From: Devosia sp. ZB163
GTDB taxonomy: Bacteria; Pseudomonadota; Alphaproteobacteria; Rhizobiales; Devosiaceae
Assembly (NCBI RefSeq): GCF_028613635.1
Contig: NZ_JAQRMY010000001.1
Coordinates: forward strand, 1,220,331-1,284,330
Direction: 5' to 3'
DNA: 64,000 nucleotides
The notes beneath the pieces were generated by a model. The model ran no database searches. It saw nothing but the letters and a program-made list of their open reading frames with translations, and was not told where the DNA came from. The number at the start of each line of letters is the position of its first letter. The stretch's first letter is position 1. Position numbers and translations under genes: made by a program. Below, piece after piece: positions 5,063 through 12,365 of this stretch.

Positions 5063-5116
5063 TTCTGGGGCCAGGGGGATGATCGAGAAGGGGGCAGCGT
5101 CGGTCAATCGATCCAT
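5063..5116 (-). other. probable +1 frameshift at the GH20 N-terminus
   Basis: On the minus strand ATG 5116 opens a frame reading MDRLTDAAPFSIIPLAP. At about 5066-5072 the GH20 frame takes over as PQNVAATGSRIAPPGLDLK. Removing one G from the CTGGCCCCAG stretch joins them as SIIPLPQNVAATGSR, the standard start of a GH20 N-terminal domain. The site lies between G runs at 5067-5070 and 5074-5078, so either a sequencing indel or a real mutation would fit. Confidence 0.6.
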
Positions 5117-5552
5117 CCGCGATGTGCTCGACACCGTTGGCCCCGGCATCAGCCGGGCTGCCCAGCCGCCAGCGGATGACGGCGACGTGCGGTTCGAACC
5201 CAGGCTCTATCGGGAGACCATGGTCGCGGCCATGGTCGAAAGCCTGCGGCTTTGGCGCGTCGCTACAGGAGAATCGAAGTTTGAACTGGCGGAGCGGAGC
5301 GGGATCTGGCGGGTAAGCCTGGACCGGTCTTCGCTGCAGGCGCGCACGCTGGACAAGTACCTGCTGCTGGAGACGCTTCCCGTGCAGCCGCGCTGGCGCG
5401 ACGTGGTCAACACGGCCGAGTTCGTGATCCACGCGGCGGGCGACAAGGCGGACAGGGCGTCACTGGTTCAGTTGCTCGACCTGCTGAAGCGTCTCATCCG
5501 CAAGTCGAGGAGCCCAGCCGAGGAGCTTGCCGATCCGCCGCAGCAAGGCTGA
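5079..5552 (+). CDS. conserved hypothetical protein, possible HTH-like segment
   Basis: I do not recognise a named family. It would be up to 157 aa, soluble, with no signal peptide or membrane segment. The middle (SLRLWRVATGESKFELAERSGIWRVSLDR, then RTLDKYLLLETLP and RWRDVVNTAEFVI) looks like a compact helical, possibly DNA-binding, unit, and the tail is basic. The ATG at 5079 has a G-run directly against it rather than a spaced ribosome site, and it overlaps the likely N-terminal codons of the divergent GH20 gene, so a later start (GTG 5124 or an ATG near 5220) is as likely. Codon use matches its neighbours. A regulatory role for the adjacent amino-sugar genes is possible but only inferred. 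Confidence 0.6.
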   Translation: MIEKGAASVNRSIRDVLDTVGPGISRAAQPPADDGDVRFEPRLYRETMVAAMVESLRLWRVATGESKFELAERSGIWRVSLDRSSLQARTLDKYLLLETLPVQPRWRDVVNTAEFVIHAAGDKADRASLVQLLDLLKRLIRKSRSPAEELADPPQQG

Positions 5553-5641: not shown

Positions 5642-6652
5642 ATGACTTCGCCGCTGCCTGAAGCCCCGCAAGGTCCCTTGCCCGCGATCGCCATCAGCGT
5701 CGAGAAACTGAGTGCTGCCTATGGCGGCAGGACGGTGCTCGACGAGGTCACGCTGCAGATTCCGCGCGGCACCAGCTTCGCGCTCCTCGGCCCCAACGGC
5801 GCCGGCAAGACGACCTTGCTCAACATCCTGAGTACGCTGCGCCGGCCCGATGGCGGGTCGGCGAGCGTCGCCGGGGCCGACGTGGTGCGGCAGCAGACCC
5901 TGGCGCGGCGTTCGCTCGGTGTCGTGTTCCAGGATTCGAGCCTCGACGACCGTTTGAGCGCCTGGGAGAACCTCGAGTTCCACGGTCTGGTCTATGGCAT
6001 GGCGCCGAAACTGCGGCGCGAACGCAGCGCCGCGGTGCTGGCGCTGGTCGAGCTCGAGGACTGGCGCGACGACATCGTTCGCAGTTTCTCGGGTGGCATG
6101 CGGCGCCGGCTGGAAATCGCGCGCGCCTTGCTGCACGAGCCGCAGATCCTGTTCCTCGACGAGCCCACGGTCGGCCTCGACGCTCAGACCCGCCTCCGCA
6201 TCTGGCGCTATCTCGATGAGATGAGACGGGAGCGCCAGCTGACCGTGCTCACCACCACCCACTACATCGAGGAAGTCGAGAGCGCCGACACGGTGTGCAT
6301 CATCGACCATGGCCGGATCATCGCCGAAGGCTCGCCCGAGGTGCTGAAGAGCCGGCACGGCAGCCGGTGGCTGCATGTCGTGCCGCGCGACCAGGCGGCC
6401 CTCGATGCGATCCGGGCGCAGCGGCCCGACGCCCAGTTGCTGGGCCAGCATGGCCTGGCACTGCCGGCCGACGATGGGGCGATGACCGATGCTTTCCTGA
6501 CCGCCTTCCGCGATCGCCTCACGGAAGTCCGCTTCCAGGATCCGACGCTGGAAAGCGTCTTCCTGTCGCTGACCGGCCGCCAGTTGCGCGACCGGGCAGA
6601 TGGCGACCGCGATGCCGAGAGAGCCGCCGGCCGGCGGGGAGGCAGGCGATGA
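5642..6652 (+). CDS. ABC-2 type transporter ATPase of a PQQ-dehydrogenase-associated system
   Basis: Cytoplasmic ATP-binding subunit, 336 aa. Walker A is LLGPNGAGKTT at about residue 55, the signature is SFSGGMRRRLE, and Walker B is ILFLDEPTVGLD followed by the switch His (TTTHYIEE). A C-terminal extension of about 100 residues after the nucleotide domain is DrrA-like. The stop overlaps the permease start (ATGA at 6649-6652). Such ATPases recur next to PQQ-dependent alcohol dehydrogenases (the Ped-type arrangement in pseudomonads), and this one starts the run that leads to the cytochrome and dehydrogenase. Substrate is unknown; export of a toxic alcohol or product, or handling of a cofactor or metal, are the usual guesses. 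Confidence 0.88.
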   Translation: MTSPLPEAPQGPLPAIAISVEKLSAAYGGRTVLDEVTLQIPRGTSFALLGPNGAGKTTLLNILSTLRRPDGGSASVAGADVVRQQTLARRSLGVVFQDSSLDDRLSAWENLEFHGLVYGMAPKLRRERSAAVLALVELEDWRDDIVRSFSGGMRRRLEIARALLHEPQILFLDEPTVGLDAQTRLRIWRYLDEMRRERQLTVLTTTHYIEEVESADTVCIIDHGRIIAEGSPEVLKSRHGSRWLHVVPRDQAALDAIRAQRPDAQLLGQHGLALPADDGAMTDAFLTAFRDRLTEVRFQDPTLESVFLSLTGRQLRDRADGDRDAERAAGRRGGRR

Positions 6653-7461
6653 ACACCTTCGTCATGGCGCTTCGCGGCCTCTACGGCGTGTGGCTGCGCG
6701 AGATCACCCGGGCCACCCGCGACCGGGCCCAGCTCATCGGCGGTATCAGCCGGCCGCTGATCTGGCTGCTGATCCTGGGGGTCGGTCTCAACCCGTATTT
6801 CCGCGGCGAAGTGTATGGTGAGGTGCGCTACGTCATCCCCTACACCTACCTGCAGTTCCTGTTCCCGGCGGTGATCGTCCTCAACATCATGTACACCTCG
6901 ATCCAGTTCGCCGTTTCGGTGATCTGGGACCGCGAGTTCGGCTTCCTGCGCGAGGTGCTGGTCTCGCCCATGCCACGCTGGCTGATCCTCTTGGGCAAGG
7001 TGCTGGGCGGCGCGACCGTGGCCATGCTCCATGGCGGGCTGGTGCTGATCCTCGCCCGCTTCGCCGACGTGACGTTGAGCCTCGAGCAGACGGCGGTGGC
7101 GCTGGTGCTGATGTTCGTCCTCGCCTTCGGCCTCACCAGCTTCGGCGTGATCCTTGCCGCCCGGGTGCGCAGCTTCGAGGGGTTCGGGGTGTTCTCCAAC
7201 ACCGTGATCCTGCCGCTCTACTTCACCTCGAGCTCGGTATTCCCGCTCGATCCGGCGCTCACCCGGGCCCAGCAGGCGGTGACCTATCCCGAGTGGCTGG
7301 TGTTCCTCGTGCAGATCAATCCGATCACCTACGCGGTCGATGCCCTGCGCGGCGTGCTTATCAACTTCAACCAGTTTCCCCCGCTCTGGGGGCCCCTGGT
7401 CATCGTGGCGATGGCGGTCGTCTTCTTCATCATCGCCCTGATCGATTTCAACCGGCAATGA
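6649..7461 (+). CDS. ABC-2 type permease of the PQQ-dehydrogenase-associated transporter
   Basis: Integral membrane partner of the preceding ATPase, 270 aa, with about six hydrophobic segments. It has the ABC-2 landmarks REITRATRDRAQLIGG near the N-terminus, IWDREFGFLREVLVSPMPR in the first cytoplasmic loop and QINPITYAVDALRG near the end. It is translationally coupled on both sides: ATGA with the ATPase and ATGA (7458-7461) with the next gene, so the three proteins are probably made stoichiometrically. This permease type is normally an exporter, which sits oddly beside the binding protein that follows. Confidence 0.88.
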   Translation: MNTFVMALRGLYGVWLREITRATRDRAQLIGGISRPLIWLLILGVGLNPYFRGEVYGEVRYVIPYTYLQFLFPAVIVLNIMYTSIQFAVSVIWDREFGFLREVLVSPMPRWLILLGKVLGGATVAMLHGGLVLILARFADVTLSLEQTAVALVLMFVLAFGLTSFGVILAARVRSFEGFGVFSNTVILPLYFTSSSVFPLDPALTRAQQAVTYPEWLVFLVQINPITYAVDALRGVLINFNQFPPLWGPLVIVAMAVVFFIIALIDFNRQ

Positions 7462-8270
7462 AACGGCGCCCGCATCGCTGGCTGCAGGCTGCCGTGAACC
7501 TCGCGATCGTCGTCGTGCTGCTCACGGCGCTGAGCTTCCTGCCGCCTGACACTTCGTTGAAGGACCGGCAGGCGGCGGGCGTCCTGAAGCTCTGCGTGCC
7601 GCCCAGCTATCCGCCGCTGGTCACCGGTGATCCGGCGCAGCCCGGCTTCGATGTCGAGCTCGTGGGTGCCGTCGCCGAGCAGCTCGGGCTGCGCCTCCTC
7701 GTCAACACGCTCCCCTCGATCGGCAGCGACTTCAATCCGCGCAACTGGTCGCTGACCCGTGGCCAGTGCGACGTCATCGCCGGCGGGCTGGCCGACACCG
7801 TGCAGACCCGCAGCTTCCTTCAGACAATCCCGACATCGGCGGAAACCGGCTGGGTCGGCATCTCCCCGACCGGGCAACTTCCGGCGGCGGGCGGCACCGT
7901 GGCAGTACTGCCCGGGACCAGCGGCCTCGACCGCCTTGCCCTCTCGGGTTGGCTCCGCGAGCAGCAGCTGGCGGTCGTTCCGACGCGCAACGCGCAGCAG
8001 TTCACCGAGGCGCTGCAGTCCGGCCGCGCGCAGGCGGGGATCACCGAGAGCTTCGTGGCGGGCGCGCTGAACCTGGGCCCGGACCAGCGCATCTTCTGGC
8101 TGCCGGACGATCGCTTTCCGCACTACCGGATGGCGCTGGGCATGTGGAAAGGCGACCAGACGCTGAAGACCGCCATCGCGTCGGCGCTCGGCGAGCTCGA
8201 GCGTTCGGGTGCGGTCGACGGCATTGAGTCTCGGTATTATGTCAAACAATACATAACATTGAGTCCGTGA
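7458..8270 (+). CDS. membrane-anchored MoxJ-like family-3 binding protein
   Basis: 270 aa with an N-terminal hydrophobic anchor (AAVNLAIVVVLLTALSFLP) and a periplasmic solute-binding family 3 domain (LKLCVPPSYPPLV, PGFDVELVGAVAEQLGLRL, CDVIAGGLADT, then AQAGITESF). Proteins of this sort accompany PQQ dehydrogenases; MoxJ/XoxJ is needed for active methanol dehydrogenase and is thought to help maturation rather than import. It overlaps the permease stop by four bases. A second, divergent paralogue lies after the dehydrogenase at 10933-11754. Family call is firm; the maturation role is inferred from context. Confidence 0.78.
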   Translation: MKRRPHRWLQAAVNLAIVVVLLTALSFLPPDTSLKDRQAAGVLKLCVPPSYPPLVTGDPAQPGFDVELVGAVAEQLGLRLLVNTLPSIGSDFNPRNWSLTRGQCDVIAGGLADTVQTRSFLQTIPTSAETGWVGISPTGQLPAAGGTVAVLPGTSGLDRLALSGWLREQQLAVVPTRNAQQFTEALQSGRAQAGITESFVAGALNLGPDQRIFWLPDDRFPHYRMALGMWKGDQTLKTAIASALGELERSGAVDGIESRYYVKQYITLSP

Positions 8271-8452
8271 ATTGGCTTTGCGCACTCTCTGAAGCTAGGG
8301 TTGCGTAGCGTTCCGAACCGGCTTAGGCGAAGGTGTGGTTGACCCGCACTGACTAGGACGATCGTTCACACGGTACGTGCCAGTCACGGCCTACCGCGCC
8401 CCACAGAAGTCTTACCGCAAGACGCGCTCGACTCCATTCTCGGGAGGATCCC

Positions 8453-9073
8453 GTGCCTTTGAAATCCATATCGCTAGCCTTCGCCACGGCGTTCGTCGCC
8501 CTGGCCGGCAGCTCCGCCCAGGCGGGCGGTTTCACCGCAGAGCAGGCTGCCGCCGGTGAAACGGCGTACAATGCCAACTGCGCCCAGTGCCATGGCCGCC
8601 AGCTCGAAGGGACGGAAGCTCCGGCTCTCGTCGGGCCGGACGTCATGCAGAACTGGGACACCGCAGCCGGTCTGTTCGACTTCATCCGCGTGGCCATGCC
8701 GCCGTCGGCGCCTGGTCAGCTCGGTGATGAGACCTATCTCAACATCGTCGCCTACATCATGAAGTTCAACGGCGCCGAGCCGGGGGACAAGCCGTTGACC
8801 AACGATCCGGCCCTGCTCGCGTCGATCTCGCTGCCGGCCGAAACCGCCGCCGGTGCGTCGAGCGCTGCAGCTGCCGCACCCGCCGAGGCCACCCCGGAAG
8901 CAGCCGAGGCCGCACCGGCCGTGCCGCAGGCCTTTACCTGGGGCAAGCAGCTCCCCGGCGGCCCGGCCCCGGGCGCTCAGGGTGCCGCCGCTACGCCGGC
9001 CGCCCCCACCGTTCCGCAGGCCTTTACGTGGGGCAAGCAGCTCCCCACGGTTCAACCCGCTACAACCAAGTGA
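8453..9073 (+). CDS. periplasmic cytochrome c with duplicated C-terminal motif, dehydrogenase partner
   Basis: 206 aa. The signal peptide ends near residue 24 (SSAQA-GG). A single class I heme domain follows with the CAQCH site at 43-47 and a Met ligand, probably Met82 in AMPPS. After about residue 125 comes an Ala/Pro-rich, low-complexity tail that carries VPQAFTWGKQLP twice, at 157-168 and 187-198. The probable role is electron acceptor for the quinoprotein dehydrogenase encoded 40 bases downstream. The GTG start at 8453 is chosen for the GGGAGGA at 8442-8448. The 182-base gap before it has a possible -35 (TTGACC) but no convincing -10. The tail is much longer than in an ordinary electron-carrier cytochrome and could be a docking arm. 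Confidence 0.88.
   Translation: MPLKSISLAFATAFVALAGSSAQAGGFTAEQAAAGETAYNANCAQCHGRQLEGTEAPALVGPDVMQNWDTAAGLFDFIRVAMPPSAPGQLGDETYLNIVAYIMKFNGAEPGDKPLTNDPALLASISLPAETAAGASSAAAAAPAEATPEAAEAAPAVPQAFTWGKQLPGGPAPGAQGAAATPAAPTVPQAFTWGKQLPTVQPATTK
8921..9046 (+). repeat. two copies of a 36-bp in-frame repeat in the cytochrome tail
   Basis: Bases 8921-8956 and 9011-9046 are 36-mers differing at two third-position-like sites (GTG/GTT and ACC/ACG), each encoding VPQAFTWGKQLP. They are 90 bases apart. The protein copies are identical although the DNA copies are not. Confidence 0.9.
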
Positions 9074-9113
9074 TCTATGGCGCACCGATGTGCGCCGCTC
9101 TTAGGAGGTCTCG

Positions 9114-10871
9114 ATGAAAATCGAACTGTTGAAGTCCATGATGGTCGCAACGACCGCGCTGGCGCTGATCGCCGGGCCGGCGTTCGCGCAGAACGTGAAG
9201 GAGAACTACGTTCCCGTCACGGACGAGATGCTCAAGAACCCGCCGCCGGAAGAGTGGCTGATGTTCCGCGGCAACTACGCCAACCAGGGCTATAGCCAGC
9301 TCGACAAGATCAACAAGGATACCGTCGGCAAGCTGCAGCTCGCCTGGGCCTGGCCGATGGCCGAGGCCGGCATCCAGGAAACCGCGCCGCTCGTGCATGA
9401 CGGCGTGATGTTCCTGCAGACAAACAACAGCATCGTCGAGGCGCTCGATGCCAAGACCGGCGACCTGATCTGGACCTACCGCCACGTCCTGACCGAGCTG
9501 CCCGCGAGCTGGAGCTACCAGCTCAACCAGGCCCGCCGCCAGAAGAACTCGATCGCCCTCTATGGGGACAAGGTCATCCTCACCACCGCCGACGCCAAGA
9601 TCGTCGTGCTGAATGCCGCCGACGGCAAGGTGGTGTGGGAGAAGCAGGTCCTCGATGTGCTGAAGGGCTACAGCTACACCGTTGGTCCGGTGATGGCCGA
9701 GGGCAAGATCATCTCCGCCATCTCGGGCTGCTCGATCGCCGGCACCGCCGGTGGTTGCTTCATCATGGCCCACGACGCCAATACCGGTGAGGAGCTCTGG
9801 CGCTTCAACACCATCGACGACCCCGAGAACCCCAAGCAGGGCGAGAGCTGGGGCGGTGTGCCGCCCGAGAACCGCTGGGGCGGTACGCCGTGGACGACCG
9901 GCTCGTACGATCCGGCGACCAAAACCACCTTCTGGGGCATCGGCATGCCGGGCCCGTACTCCGAGCTCATCCGTGGCTCGGGCGACGGCAGCGTGCTCTA
10001 CACCAACTCGACGCTCGCCCTCGACACCGAGACCGGCAAGCTGAAGTGGTACTACCAGCACCTGCCGCGCGATAACTGGGACCTCGACAGCCCGTTCGAG
10101 CGTATCCTCGTCGACCAGGAAGTTGACGGCAAGACGCAGCACCTGCTGGTCACCGCCGCCGGCAAGAACGGCATCGTGTTCGCCCTCGACCGCGATACCG
10201 GCAAGTACCTGTGGCACAAGGAGACGGTGAAGCAGAACGTCGTCACCGGCATCGACGCCGATGGGACCGTGCACATCAACACCGACCTCATCCCGCAGGC
10301 CGTTGGTGAAGAAGACCTGATCTGCGCCTCGGTTTCGGGTGGCAAGCTCTGGATGACCGGCTCGTACAGCCCGCTCACCAAGGCCTACTACGTGCCGCTG
10401 ACCGAAGCCTGCAACACCGTGGCTCCGACCCAGACCGAGTTCACCGCCGGTAACGCGGTGGGCGCGACCAAGTTCGGCCCGCGCGTGCTGCCGGAAGGCA
10501 TCACCGATGCCGGCCTGCTCGACGCGGTCGACATCAACCCGACCCAGGGCGACCACAAGTGGCAGTATCGCAGCCGTCCCTCGATGACCTCGTCGGTGCT
10601 CGCCACCGCCGGTGGCCTCGTGTTCGGTGGTGACGCTGCACGCAACATCAACGCCTGGGACCAGGAGACCGGCGAGGTCGTGTGGTCGCAGCGCCTGAAC
10701 GCTCCGATCGGCGGCTACCCGTCGACCTACGAGATCGACGGCGAGCAGTACCTCGTCGTGCCGACTGGCTACTCGAACGCGGCGAGCTCGATCTCCTCGG
10801 CCTTCCCGGAGATTCCGCTGCCGACCGGTTCGGGCAACTCGATCTTCGTCTTCAAGCTGCCCAAGAGCTGA
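9114..10871 (+). CDS. PQQ-dependent alcohol dehydrogenase with Asp-x-Asp signature (XoxF/PedH/DepA-like)
   Basis: Periplasmic quinoprotein, 585 aa, signal peptide to about residue 25 (AFA-QN). It is an eight-bladed propeller of the methanol/ethanol dehydrogenase family, with tryptophan-docking repeats such as DAKTGDLIWTYR, DANTGEELWRF, DTETGKLKWYYQ and DQETGEVVWSQR. The catalytic Asp is Asp323 in NWDLD; Asp325, two residues later, is the extra acidic ligand that separates lanthanide-dependent from calcium-dependent enzymes. The metal-site Asn is probably in YTNSTLALD (about 298). The adjacent-Cys pair of classical methanol dehydrogenases is absent; Cys206 and Cys215 lie instead in SGCSIAGTAGGC. 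An SD (AGGAGG) precedes ATG 9114. It shares a run with the cytochrome. No pqq biosynthesis genes are in the window. Substrate unknown. Confidence 0.92.
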   Translation: MKIELLKSMMVATTALALIAGPAFAQNVKENYVPVTDEMLKNPPPEEWLMFRGNYANQGYSQLDKINKDTVGKLQLAWAWPMAEAGIQETAPLVHDGVMFLQTNNSIVEALDAKTGDLIWTYRHVLTELPASWSYQLNQARRQKNSIALYGDKVILTTADAKIVVLNAADGKVVWEKQVLDVLKGYSYTVGPVMAEGKIISAISGCSIAGTAGGCFIMAHDANTGEELWRFNTIDDPENPKQGESWGGVPPENRWGGTPWTTGSYDPATKTTFWGIGMPGPYSELIRGSGDGSVLYTNSTLALDTETGKLKWYYQHLPRDNWDLDSPFERILVDQEVDGKTQHLLVTAAGKNGIVFALDRDTGKYLWHKETVKQNVVTGIDADGTVHINTDLIPQAVGEEDLICASVSGGKLWMTGSYSPLTKAYYVPLTEACNTVAPTQTEFTAGNAVGATKFGPRVLPEGITDAGLLDAVDINPTQGDHKWQYRSRPSMTSSVLATAGGLVFGGDAARNINAWDQETGEVVWSQRLNAPIGGYPSTYEIDGEQYLVVPTGYSNAASSISSAFPEIPLPTGSGNSIFVFKLPKS

Positions 10872-10892
10872 GTTCAAGATCATAGCGAATGC

Positions 10893-10920
10893 GGAAGGGG
10901 CTTCGGCCCCTTCCTCTTTT
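10893..10920 (+). terminator. intrinsic terminator after the PQQ dehydrogenase
   Basis: GGAAGGGGC and GCCCCTTCC (9 bp) around a TTCG tetraloop, followed by TCTTTT. It ends 12 bases before the next start codon, so it would uncouple most transcription of the second MoxJ-like gene from the dehydrogenase. Confidence 0.85.
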
Positions 10921-10932
10921 CTGGAGACCGCC

Positions 10933-11754
10933 ATGCTGAAATTCCTAGTGCCCGCGCTGCTGCTGCTTTCGACCGGCGCGACCATGGCGCAGACCTCCGG
11001 CATCCCGCCCGAGGAGCTGACCAACACCCGCCGCCAGGCCGGCGACACCATCAATGTCTGTTTCGACCGGACGAGCCTGGGCCGGCAGTTCGACGAAGCC
11101 GTGGCCAAGGCCCTGGGCGACGCGCTGTTCCTCGACGTCAAGGTCATCGAAGGCTTTGGCGGCTTCCCGCTCAACGGCGACGGTTTCATAGACGAGCTGA
11201 CGCTTGCCATGAACAACGACTGCGACATGTTCATGGGCGTCTCGGTCTCGGAAAACACGCCGGTCTCCGATGCCTTCTCGATCACCCGCCCCTACGCCAC
11301 CATCCCCTTCGTCCTCGCGGTCAAGAATCCGGATTGGCAGAGCCTGGGGGATATCCCCAAGGACCAGCGGCTCGGCACCGCCATGGCCTCGATGGGCGAG
11401 ATGAACTACATCACCTGGGCGCAGCAGCGGGCCAAGCCCGAGCGCTGGGTGAGGCTGCCCTACGCCGATCCCGAGCTGATGGCGACCCGCGTGCTCGATG
11501 GCACCATCGCCGGCATGATCCTGTGGCAGCCGGTTCTCGCGCGCCTGCAGAAGGACCGGCCTGACGCCGCCGAACTGCGCGTCATCGCCAACGCACCGAT
11601 TCCGGAATCGGAGACGCGCGTCGGCGCACTCGTCTCGAGCCGCAACAGCTTCCTGCGCAGCCAGATCGACCAGGCGATCGACGCGCTCGTCGCCGACGGC
11701 TCCATCGACGCATTGCTCAAGCAGTTCGGCTATGCGGGGCGTGCCGGCAGTTAG
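10933..11754 (+). CDS. second MoxJ-like periplasmic binding protein
   Basis: 273 aa, signal peptide to about residue 19 (TMA-QT), family 3 solute-binding fold (INVCFDRTSLGRQFDEAVAKAL, CDMFMGVSVSENTP, FSITRPYATIPFVL). It fits quinoprotein-dehydrogenase-associated binding proteins (MoxJ/XoxJ type), as does the more divergent membrane-anchored copy at 7458. A GGAGA site at 10922-10926 precedes the ATG. It lies immediately downstream of a strong terminator, so it is expected to be expressed at a lower level than the enzyme. Its stop overlaps the stop of the convergent gene by three bases. Assignment rests on fold and context. Confidence 0.8.
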   Translation: MLKFLVPALLLLSTGATMAQTSGIPPEELTNTRRQAGDTINVCFDRTSLGRQFDEAVAKALGDALFLDVKVIEGFGGFPLNGDGFIDELTLAMNNDCDMFMGVSVSENTPVSDAFSITRPYATIPFVLAVKNPDWQSLGDIPKDQRLGTAMASMGEMNYITWAQQRAKPERWVRLPYADPELMATRVLDGTIAGMILWQPVLARLQKDRPDAAELRVIANAPIPESETRVGALVSSRNSFLRSQIDQAIDALVADGSIDALLKQFGYAGRAGS

Positions 11755-12365
11755 GCGTTGCCGACCAGCGTCACGTAGGGCAACACGGCGGCGCCGAGGC
11801 TGGGCACCAGCCCGGCGACGACCGCCGCGGTGACGACGGCAAGTCCGATCGACTCGTAGCGCGGCAGGCGCTTGCCCTGATCCGGCCGCACGGCCTGCCA
11901 GATCGCCCCGGCAGCGAGGCCCGGGATCGGCAGCAGGTTAAGCAGCACCGAGCCGGCCGCCACGAGCTGGAACTGATTGATGCCGTACAGCACGGCGTAG
12001 CCGCCGGTACGCGGCAGCATCAGTGCCAGCGGGCGCAGCAGGTCGGCTGCCGGAACCAGCAGCGCCATGGCGGCGAGGCCGCCCAGGACGACAAGCACCA
12101 CGCCCCAGCCGCCTAACCGATTGCTCGCCGGCTCGTAGCGCAGCGGCCGCACCCAGCTCATCGCGAACAGGACGCCCACGGCGAGTCCCCAGACCGAAAG
12201 CTGCACGAACGGGTTCGGCGACAGCCGGCCATCGTACTGTGGACGCCTGTCCCCCATGAGCCGTGCGAGGCCCGCGAACAGCAACCCCTGCAGCCAGGCA
12301 AACACGATCACCGCGCCGATGCGCGATACGATCTCGCTCATGCTCAGGTCGCCAAGCAGCGTCAT
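11751..12365 (-). CDS. degenerate M50 (site-2 protease-like) membrane protein
   Basis: 204 aa, about five to six hydrophobic segments. The layout follows bacterial M50 proteases: GDRRPQYDGRLSPNPFVQL resembles their D-x-x-GRLTLNP-hxD segment, WVRPLRYEPASNR their FGWAKPVPVNP segment, and LLNLLPIPGLAAG their NLLPIPPLDGG segment. The zinc-binding residues are missing: no HExxH in the first helix (LLFAGLARL) and the Asp of the last motif is replaced (GLAAG). It is therefore probably a catalytically dead relative. The start could also be ATG 12341. It is convergent with the upstream binding-protein gene and has no obvious operon partner. Confidence 0.6.
   Translation of the reverse strand: MTLLGDLSMSEIVSRIGAVIVFAWLQGLLFAGLARLMGDRRPQYDGRLSPNPFVQLSVWGLAVGVLFAMSWVRPLRYEPASNRLGGWGVVLVVLGGLAAMALLVPAADLLRPLALMLPRTGGYAVLYGINQFQLVAAGSVLLNLLPIPGLAAGAIWQAVRPDQGKRLPRYESIGLAVVTAAVVAGLVPSLGAAVLPYVTLVGNA

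Follow-up and report, generated by a model that had tools for sequence, protein, structure and literature searches.

The 64,000-nucleotide stretch of DNA from Devosia sp. ZB163 analyzed here (the window; G000:C1:1220331-1284330 in genome G000, of 4.59 Mb) encodes a dehydrogenase dependent on pyrroloquinoline quinone (PQQ) that belongs to a branch devoid of Glu and Asn metal ligands. Comparison of related loci indicates that this enzyme is inherited with a cytochrome c, an ABC-2 transporter (ABC, ATP-binding cassette) and its binding protein SBP1, a second binding protein (SBP2), and a small convergent membrane protein (dnTM). New, as judged from the sequences, is an ABC-2 family that is distinct from PedC, has a different type of binding protein, and is linked to this dehydrogenase branch. 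The membership of dnTM in the module, a repeated motif in the cytochrome tail, and a probable reliance on imported PQQ are further new points. The genes probably form a complete module for the periplasmic oxidation of an alcohol, a polyol, or a sugar.

Conservation and layout of the module

One genome per species was scanned for related loci, of which the best 80 of 92 were retained, L034 to L066 being the 33 closest. Homologues of all six genes, from the ABC ATPase to SBP2, were found in the same order and on one strand in 22 of these 33 loci, indicating that the layout is not due to chance and bearing out the proposal of an earlier sequence-only reading that the ABC and binding-protein set belongs to the dehydrogenase module. 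Among the 22, the matches were partly in two pieces in L051 and L056, and an importer was inserted in L052, L053, and L056; two of the 33 loci (L043 and L049) come from short contigs. The order of the genes is preserved in Devosia, Haematobacter, Paracoccus, Chelativorans, Nitratireductor, and Paenochrobactrum, and the module also occurs on plasmid pAMI5 of Paracoccus aminophilus. Next to more distant dehydrogenases in the same family (35 to 45% identity; L141 to L149 and L155), the same stretch contains the permease (63 to 73% identity), the ATPase, SBP1, and SBP2 in shuffled orders, with dnTM in 9 of the 10 loci. Because the genes have been reshuffled yet retained, they are expected to work together. 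One observation weighs against a strict association of the transporter with the dehydrogenase and the cytochrome: 9 of the 33 closest loci contain this pair with no ABC genes nearby.

The six genes and the terminator described by the sequence-only reading are all present (Table 1). The ATPase and permease genes, and likewise the permease and SBP1 genes, overlap by ATGA, making translational coupling of the three likely; a gap of 182 bases separates SBP1 from the cytochrome gene, which is followed by that of the dehydrogenase. Five terminator-like sites were found between positions 5400 and 12500 versus 2.8 expected, the one downstream of the dehydrogenase gene being the strongest.

Table 1. 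Features of the dehydrogenase module in the window
Feature	Coordinates	Strand	Model match or remark
ABC ATPase of ABC-2 (DrrA/PedB-like) transporter	5642..6652	+	PF00005, 120 bits
ABC-2 permease, clade distinct from PedC	6649..7461	+	PF01061, 88 bits
SBP1, binding protein of family 3, anchored in the membrane at its N terminus (by eye)	7458..8270	+	PF00497, 38 bits
Cytochrome c, Pro/Ala-rich tail with two PQAFTWGKQLP copies	8453..9073	+	PF13442, 45 bits
PQQ-dependent dehydrogenase	9114..10871	+	TIGR03075, 404 of 480 bits; PF01011, 208 bits
Terminator-like hairpin 3' of the dehydrogenase gene	10893..10914	+	Stem of 9 pairs including 7 G-C, followed by TCTTTTCT
SBP2, periplasmic family-3 binding-protein fold, conserved dehydrogenase partner	10933..11754	+	
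dnTM, small convergent membrane protein, conserved	11751..12365	-	Conserved with module; under all family cut-offs

The module extends past the end that had been assigned to it, since the convergent dnTM gene is conserved alongside. It was detected in 20 of the 22 loci with all six other genes (the exceptions being L038 and L039), and in the majority of the more divergent modules it is located close to SBP1 or SBP2; on this comparative evidence, dnTM is counted as a member. Its best matches to Pfam (11.9 bits) and NCBIfam (13.4 bits) models were far below cut-off, and the PDB provided no match (best E value, 2.4). The motif NLLPxPGL could suggest a degenerate site-2 protease; we do not claim this assignment, the Peptidase_M50 model having given no match at an E value of 1, nor at 10 in the Devosia genome. 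An open frame upstream of the ATPase gene (5079-5552, + strand, 157 residues) was not taken as a member: it has no family match, no homologue in the compared loci at an E value of 1e-6, and is of unsure coding status.

Several loci carry additional genes. In 17 of 55 loci, the module contains or adjoins both the permease and the binding protein of a NitT/SsuABC-type importer, of the type found in P. aminophilus; this count includes the query itself (L114) and one record twice (L041 and L193). All or part of this importer separates the ABC-2 ATPase gene from that of the permease in L052, L053, L056, L114, L145, L146, L149, L150, L152, L155, and L189, and it flanks the module in other loci. The window contains neither the permease nor the binding protein of this importer. 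Moreover, the Devosia genome lacks the binding protein at an E value of 1e-30, and relatives devoid of this dehydrogenase also possess the importer, which can therefore be no more than an accessory. On pAMI5 (L114, 1745-2740), a metal homeostasis protein of the TerC/Alx family is encoded directly 5' of the module, a position in which TerC was seen in P. aminophilus, the query record, only. In Haematobacter (L044, L045, and L061), the ATPase and permease genes are some 0.3 to 1.3 kb apart, with Pro/Arg-rich, low-complexity-looking open frames in between.

Active site and phylogeny of the dehydrogenase

The sequence-only reading had described a PQQ dehydrogenase accompanied by a cytochrome c and possessing an Asp-x-Asp site of the lanthanide (XoxF/PedH) type, in a divergent branch without the classical Cys-Cys pair and the metal-ligand Glu. 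The site is present as NWDLD at residues 321 to 325, the catalytic Asp323 and the Asp at plus 2 (Asp325) aligning with the Asp-x-Asp of XoxF (4mae) and PedH (6zcv). The same alignment confirmed the missing residues: Ser207 occupies the column of the metal-ligand Glu (an Ala being a possible partner by eye), Met278 that of the metal-ligand Asn, and Gln-Ala those of the adjacent Cys-Cys pair near PQQ. We take the Glu and Asn ligands to be E172 and N256 in XoxF numbering. In the trees, the dehydrogenase falls in its own 13-row clade (support, 100/100), in agreement with a divergent branch, and a branch with 100/100 support separates it from the XoxF/PedH group; in one tree, the site labels of L066_975, L033, and L081 disagree with the side on which these sequences fall. 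Thus, the Asp-x-Asp pair stands as described, whereas an enzyme of the XoxF/PedH type is rejected, both on the missing Glu, Asn, and Cys-Cys residues and on tree position.

The dehydrogenase groups with 4cvb and 4mh1 against XoxF/PedH, that is, in the broad PsADH/sorbose dehydrogenase branch, and its closest solved structures are 7wmd, 4cvb, and 9m2c. Like the P. saccharoketogenes PQQ-ADH (4cvb), DepA/QDDH (7wmd), and the K. vulgare sorbose dehydrogenase (4mh1), it has the propeller fold, which was checked on a relative with 64% identity (L058), and lacks the Glu and Asn ligands and the Cys-Cys pair. It differs from these enzymes by its own clade and by the residue at plus 2, which is Glu in five solved relatives of the branch (4cvb, 7wmd, 9m2c, 22vi, and 4mh1). 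Four of the solved relatives and the K. vulgare enzyme of L115 form a 100/100 clade that does not contain the window enzyme. Phylogeny therefore sets the enzyme apart from XoxF/PedH and also from the narrow, Glu-bearing PsADH/sorbose dehydrogenase clade. The Asp at plus 2 is present in 103 of 104 homologues and predominates on either side of the tree.

A survey of ocean genomes (Voutsinos 2025, PMC11996626) proposed lanthanide use for D-x-D sorbose-dehydrogenase-like enzymes from motif and model, and labelled 4CVB calcium dependent, according to the accessible parts of that paper. Its clade resembles the window enzyme, by description rather than by sequence, in comprising sorbose dehydrogenase relatives with D-x-D only, and the same parts do not mention a transporter or a binding-protein set linked to these enzymes, or a cytochrome tail. 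The Asp at plus 2 leaves room for lanthanide use by the window enzyme without demonstrating it: the sign is weaker here than in XoxF and PedH, since the latter have Glu and Asn as further ligands. The calcium-labelled 4CVB is itself acidic (Glu) at this position. Three of the four calcium ligands reportedly differ in PsADH.

Two readings of the site were weighed. According to the first, the enzyme is an ordinary calcium-dependent sugar and alcohol dehydrogenase of broad substrate range from the PsADH/sorbose dehydrogenase branch, for which the Asp is uninformative regarding lanthanides. This explanation falls just short of an even chance; the Glu at plus 2 of the five solved relatives, the 100/100 clade that leaves the window enzyme out, and the retention of Asp in nearly all homologues count against it. 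According to the second, the enzyme uses lanthanides at least facultatively. The presence of Glu in the PsADH branch versus the retained Asp in the window clade mildly favors this possibility, which we hold tentatively and with slightly less than even confidence.

An ABC-2 transporter distinct from PedC

The sequence-only reading took an operon combining a binding protein and an exporter-type permease to suggest a maturation or metal/cofactor role not usually described. A link between an ABC-2-type transporter with a binding protein and a PQQ dehydrogenase is in fact already known for PedA1A2BC/Lut, according to the accessible parts of PMC6839425 and PMC12997753. The window set differs in its permease clade, binding-protein type, and dehydrogenase branch, as well as by the lack of a propeller protein, and the novelty is restricted to the different permease family and binding-protein type. 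The ATPase scored 296 of 312 bits with TIGR01188 and 234 of 302 with TIGR03864, both below cut-off, and its C terminus is a basic tail (AGRRGGRR), comparable tails being found in L045, L052, and L056. The permease scored 168 of 223 bits with TIGR01247 and 120 of 241 with the PedC model, TIGR03861. It belongs to a clade split from true PedC, which includes L033, at 100/100 support, and its identity to true PedC is 25 to 31% for 17 of the 18 rows kept and 24% for the remaining one.

Among 121 genomes, the PedC model matched 36 places at 105 to 133 bits, corresponding to window-type permeases, and 38 places that passed the cut-off, corresponding to true PedC. Distances were determined to the 49 dehydrogenase places scoring at least 354 bits. 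Window-type permeases were located within 25 kb of such a place in 28 of 36 cases, and within 3 kb in 18, versus 0 of 38 for true PedC; some weaker dehydrogenase places, excluded from this count, do adjoin true PedC (G006, G039:C65, and G067). The eight window-type permeases without such a dehydrogenase within 25 kb weigh against an obligatory association. A dehydrogenase was present in 4 of 24 true-PedC loci, 20 of which had flanks of only about 1.5 kb. Their ligand columns contain Glu and Asn in L153 and L154 and Asp and Asn in L140, neither ligand being clear in L033. Beside the PedH-like enzymes of L154 (at about 11188) and L153 (at about 4538), second, quinoprotein-like genes have Gly in the column of the catalytic Asp and are possibly inactive paralogues. 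No ABC-2 set was seen in the K. vulgare loci L115 and L116 within flanks of 3 to 4 kb, unlike in the window module.

The Devosia genome also contains a PedA1A2BC-like set (G000:C1, about 198-205 kb), with a permease above the PedC cut-off (338 bits), a binding protein somewhat below that of TIGR03863 (378 of 414 bits), an ATPase that, like that of the window, misses TIGR03864 (267 of 302 bits), and a YVTN-propeller-like protein spotted by eye. No more than about 10 kb separates this set from the other PQQ enzyme of the genome, whose ligand columns contain Asp and Asn. Two PQQ enzymes from different branches thus coexist in one cell, and each has an ABC-2 transporter of its own. The corresponding locus (L140; about 198-212 kb) also encodes a NitT-type importer, a pentapeptide-repeat protein, and a cytochrome c, and its PQQ dehydrogenase, the second of the genome, has an MDYD motif and Asp replacing the Glu ligand.

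These results bear on the possibility that the window carries a known lanthanide-uptake operon of the PedA1A2BC/Lut kind attached to a lanthanide enzyme. The adjacency of an ABC-2 permease and ATPase to a D-x-D PQQ dehydrogenase and the subthreshold scores with TIGR03861 and TIGR03864 would fit such an operon, which is nevertheless very improbable considering the separate permease clade (24 to 31% identity), the other type of binding protein, the lack of a propeller protein among the module genes, and the location of the PedA1A2BC-like set elsewhere in the genome. Membership of the window transporter in PedA1A2BC was rejected on the missed PedC cut-off, the separate permease clade, and the binding-protein type.

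A detoxification unit, in which the enzyme oxidizes a toxic or xenobiotic alcohol and a DrrAB-like pump removes the compound, was also considered. The top scores of the ATPase and permease were obtained with DrrA and DrrB models, under the cut-offs, and relatives of the enzyme oxidize deoxynivalenol, according to the accessible parts of PMC10301637 and PMC10975547. Against these points, the ABC set has a coupled binding protein, as expected for import, and nothing among our results points to a drug-like substrate, so that we regard this function as unlikely.

Binding proteins SBP1 and SBP2

Both binding proteins had been described as MoxJ-like. Neither reached the 212-bit cut-off of the MoxJ model, TIGR03871: SBP1 scored 14.6 bits (E value, 0.019), SBP2 gave no match at an E value of 1, and the only clear match was that of a distant SBP2 orthologue (L052), at 30.7 bits. 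What stands is the binding-protein fold of SBP2 next to a PQQ dehydrogenase, a feature common to MoxJ/PedG-like helpers. SBP2 resembles the PedG, MxaJ, and XoxJ helpers, as described in the accessible parts of PMC12997753, in having this fold, a gene beside that of the dehydrogenase, and no coupling to a permease gene, and differs from them in not reaching the MoxJ family cut-off. Against a helper function, the best matches to SBP2 among those listed were amino-acid and opine binding proteins. No solved MoxJ-type structure was found among the matches listed. SBP1 has two cysteines, Cys46 and Cys104, that are invariant in 16 aligned sequences, and gave no match to TIGR03863 at an E value of 1. 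In scans with family models, the dehydrogenase was the sole propeller protein recognized in the module.

A repeated motif in the cytochrome tail

The C-terminal ~95 residues of the cytochrome are mostly Pro/Ala rich and contain the sequence PQAFTWGKQLP twice, at residues 158 to 168 and 188 to 198 (consensus PQA[FY]TWGxxLP). The motif was found in the upstream cytochrome of 40 of 41 distinct dehydrogenases with at least 60% identity, in two copies in 33 cases and in one copy in 7; the single miss, L059, has a near copy (PQAFTWGRELR). It was found for none of the 70 dehydrogenases below 60% identity, including 21 that are preceded by a CxxCH frame. Matches of fewer than 480 residues, above an E value of 1e-60, or with fewer than 900 bases upstream were left out of these counts, as were identical sequences. 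A 20-base DNA pattern for PQA[FY]TWG, to which the TFG and TAG forms are invisible, had 24 occurrences in 12 of the 121 genomes, each beside a dehydrogenase of the window clade, versus none for the reversed control pattern. In a 19-sequence alignment, the mean frequency of the top residue was 0.91 and 0.86 for the columns of the two motif copies, 0.80 for the heme domain, and 0.52 and 0.53 for the linkers.

Natural fusions of the cytochrome and the dehydrogenase in a single frame occur in the window clade, in the gammaproteobacterial metagenome-assembled loci L058 and L059, and also in the sister group (L188 and L189). The linker keeps one copy of the motif in L058 and the near copy in L059, and neither SBP2 nor ABC genes were found near these two fusions. 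The simplest reading is therefore that the partner of the motif is the dehydrogenase. Two observations weigh against docking: the sister-group fusions and the separate cytochromes of Bauldia and L190 are devoid of the motif, and AlphaFold2 modeling of the L058 fusion leaves the motif at predicted local distance difference test (pLDDT) values of 25 to 29. The model provides no support for docking and does not refute it, since the alignment has only two to four rows at the motif.

The repeated tail could alternatively be a functionless by-product of a low-complexity linker, as might be suspected from its Pro/Ala-rich surroundings, its disorder in the fusion model, and its absence from sister-group cytochromes. 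We consider this quite improbable: the motif columns are conserved at least as well as the heme domain as the linkers between them vary, and the pattern is confined to this cytochrome in the 121 genomes. The tail as a docking motif is, on the sequence evidence, an evenly balanced prospect, and the dehydrogenase and the cytochrome very probably form a functional pair. Neither the transporter pairing nor the cytochrome tail was found in a literature search limited to open papers.

Supply of PQQ

PqqE and PqqC were not found in the Devosia genome, the search for PqqC including relatives as positive controls; PQQ is therefore probably imported by the cell. Among 11 module-bearing genomes tested, both PqqE and PqqC were found in 5 and neither was found in 6, including that of Devosia; G014 and G025, which have the dehydrogenase and PqqE, were excluded from the PqqC test as incomplete genomes. 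The transporter lies beside the dehydrogenase in five of the genomes in which neither protein was found (G000, G060, G038, G039, and G049) and beside another, weaker dehydrogenase relative in the sixth (G020). An exporter-type permease in an operon with a PQQ enzyme could suggest that the transporter delivers cell-made PQQ to the periplasm. The five genomes contradict this export function, which is extremely improbable unless PQQ is made there by an unknown route.

Proposed function and implications

In the mechanism that we favor, the dehydrogenase would take up PQQ, probably not made by its own cell, together with a metal held by Asp323 and Asp325, oxidize its substrate, and hand the electrons to the cytochrome. 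The cytochrome tail would bind the dehydrogenase through the two copies of the motif, thereby tethering the heme near the enzyme. The most likely role of SBP2 is to assist the dehydrogenase in the manner of PedG/MxaJ. For the ABC-2 transporter, SBP1, and dnTM, the most likely task is the handling of a small molecule or a metal needed by this enzyme branch, parallel to the role of PedA1A2BC/Lut for the other branch. That the transporter serves the supply of a cofactor or metal, rather than a substrate or product, is a possibility to which we give a little less than even weight. A more far-reaching and rather unlikely version is a second, independent rare-earth PQQ route combining a sorbose-dehydrogenase-type enzyme with a rebuilt Asp-Asp site, its own ABC-2/SBP1/dnTM loading system working in one cell alongside PedA1A2BC, imported PQQ, and a cytochrome wired by the two-copy tail motif.

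The occurrence in one bacterial family of two PQQ dehydrogenase branches, each with an ABC-2 transporter, enables direct comparison of the cargo of these transporters. With the other two ligands gone, the enzyme branch offers a clean test of the survey rule that equates Asp-x-Asp with lanthanide use. The cytochrome tail provides a testable docking motif, for which the natural fusions are built-in controls.

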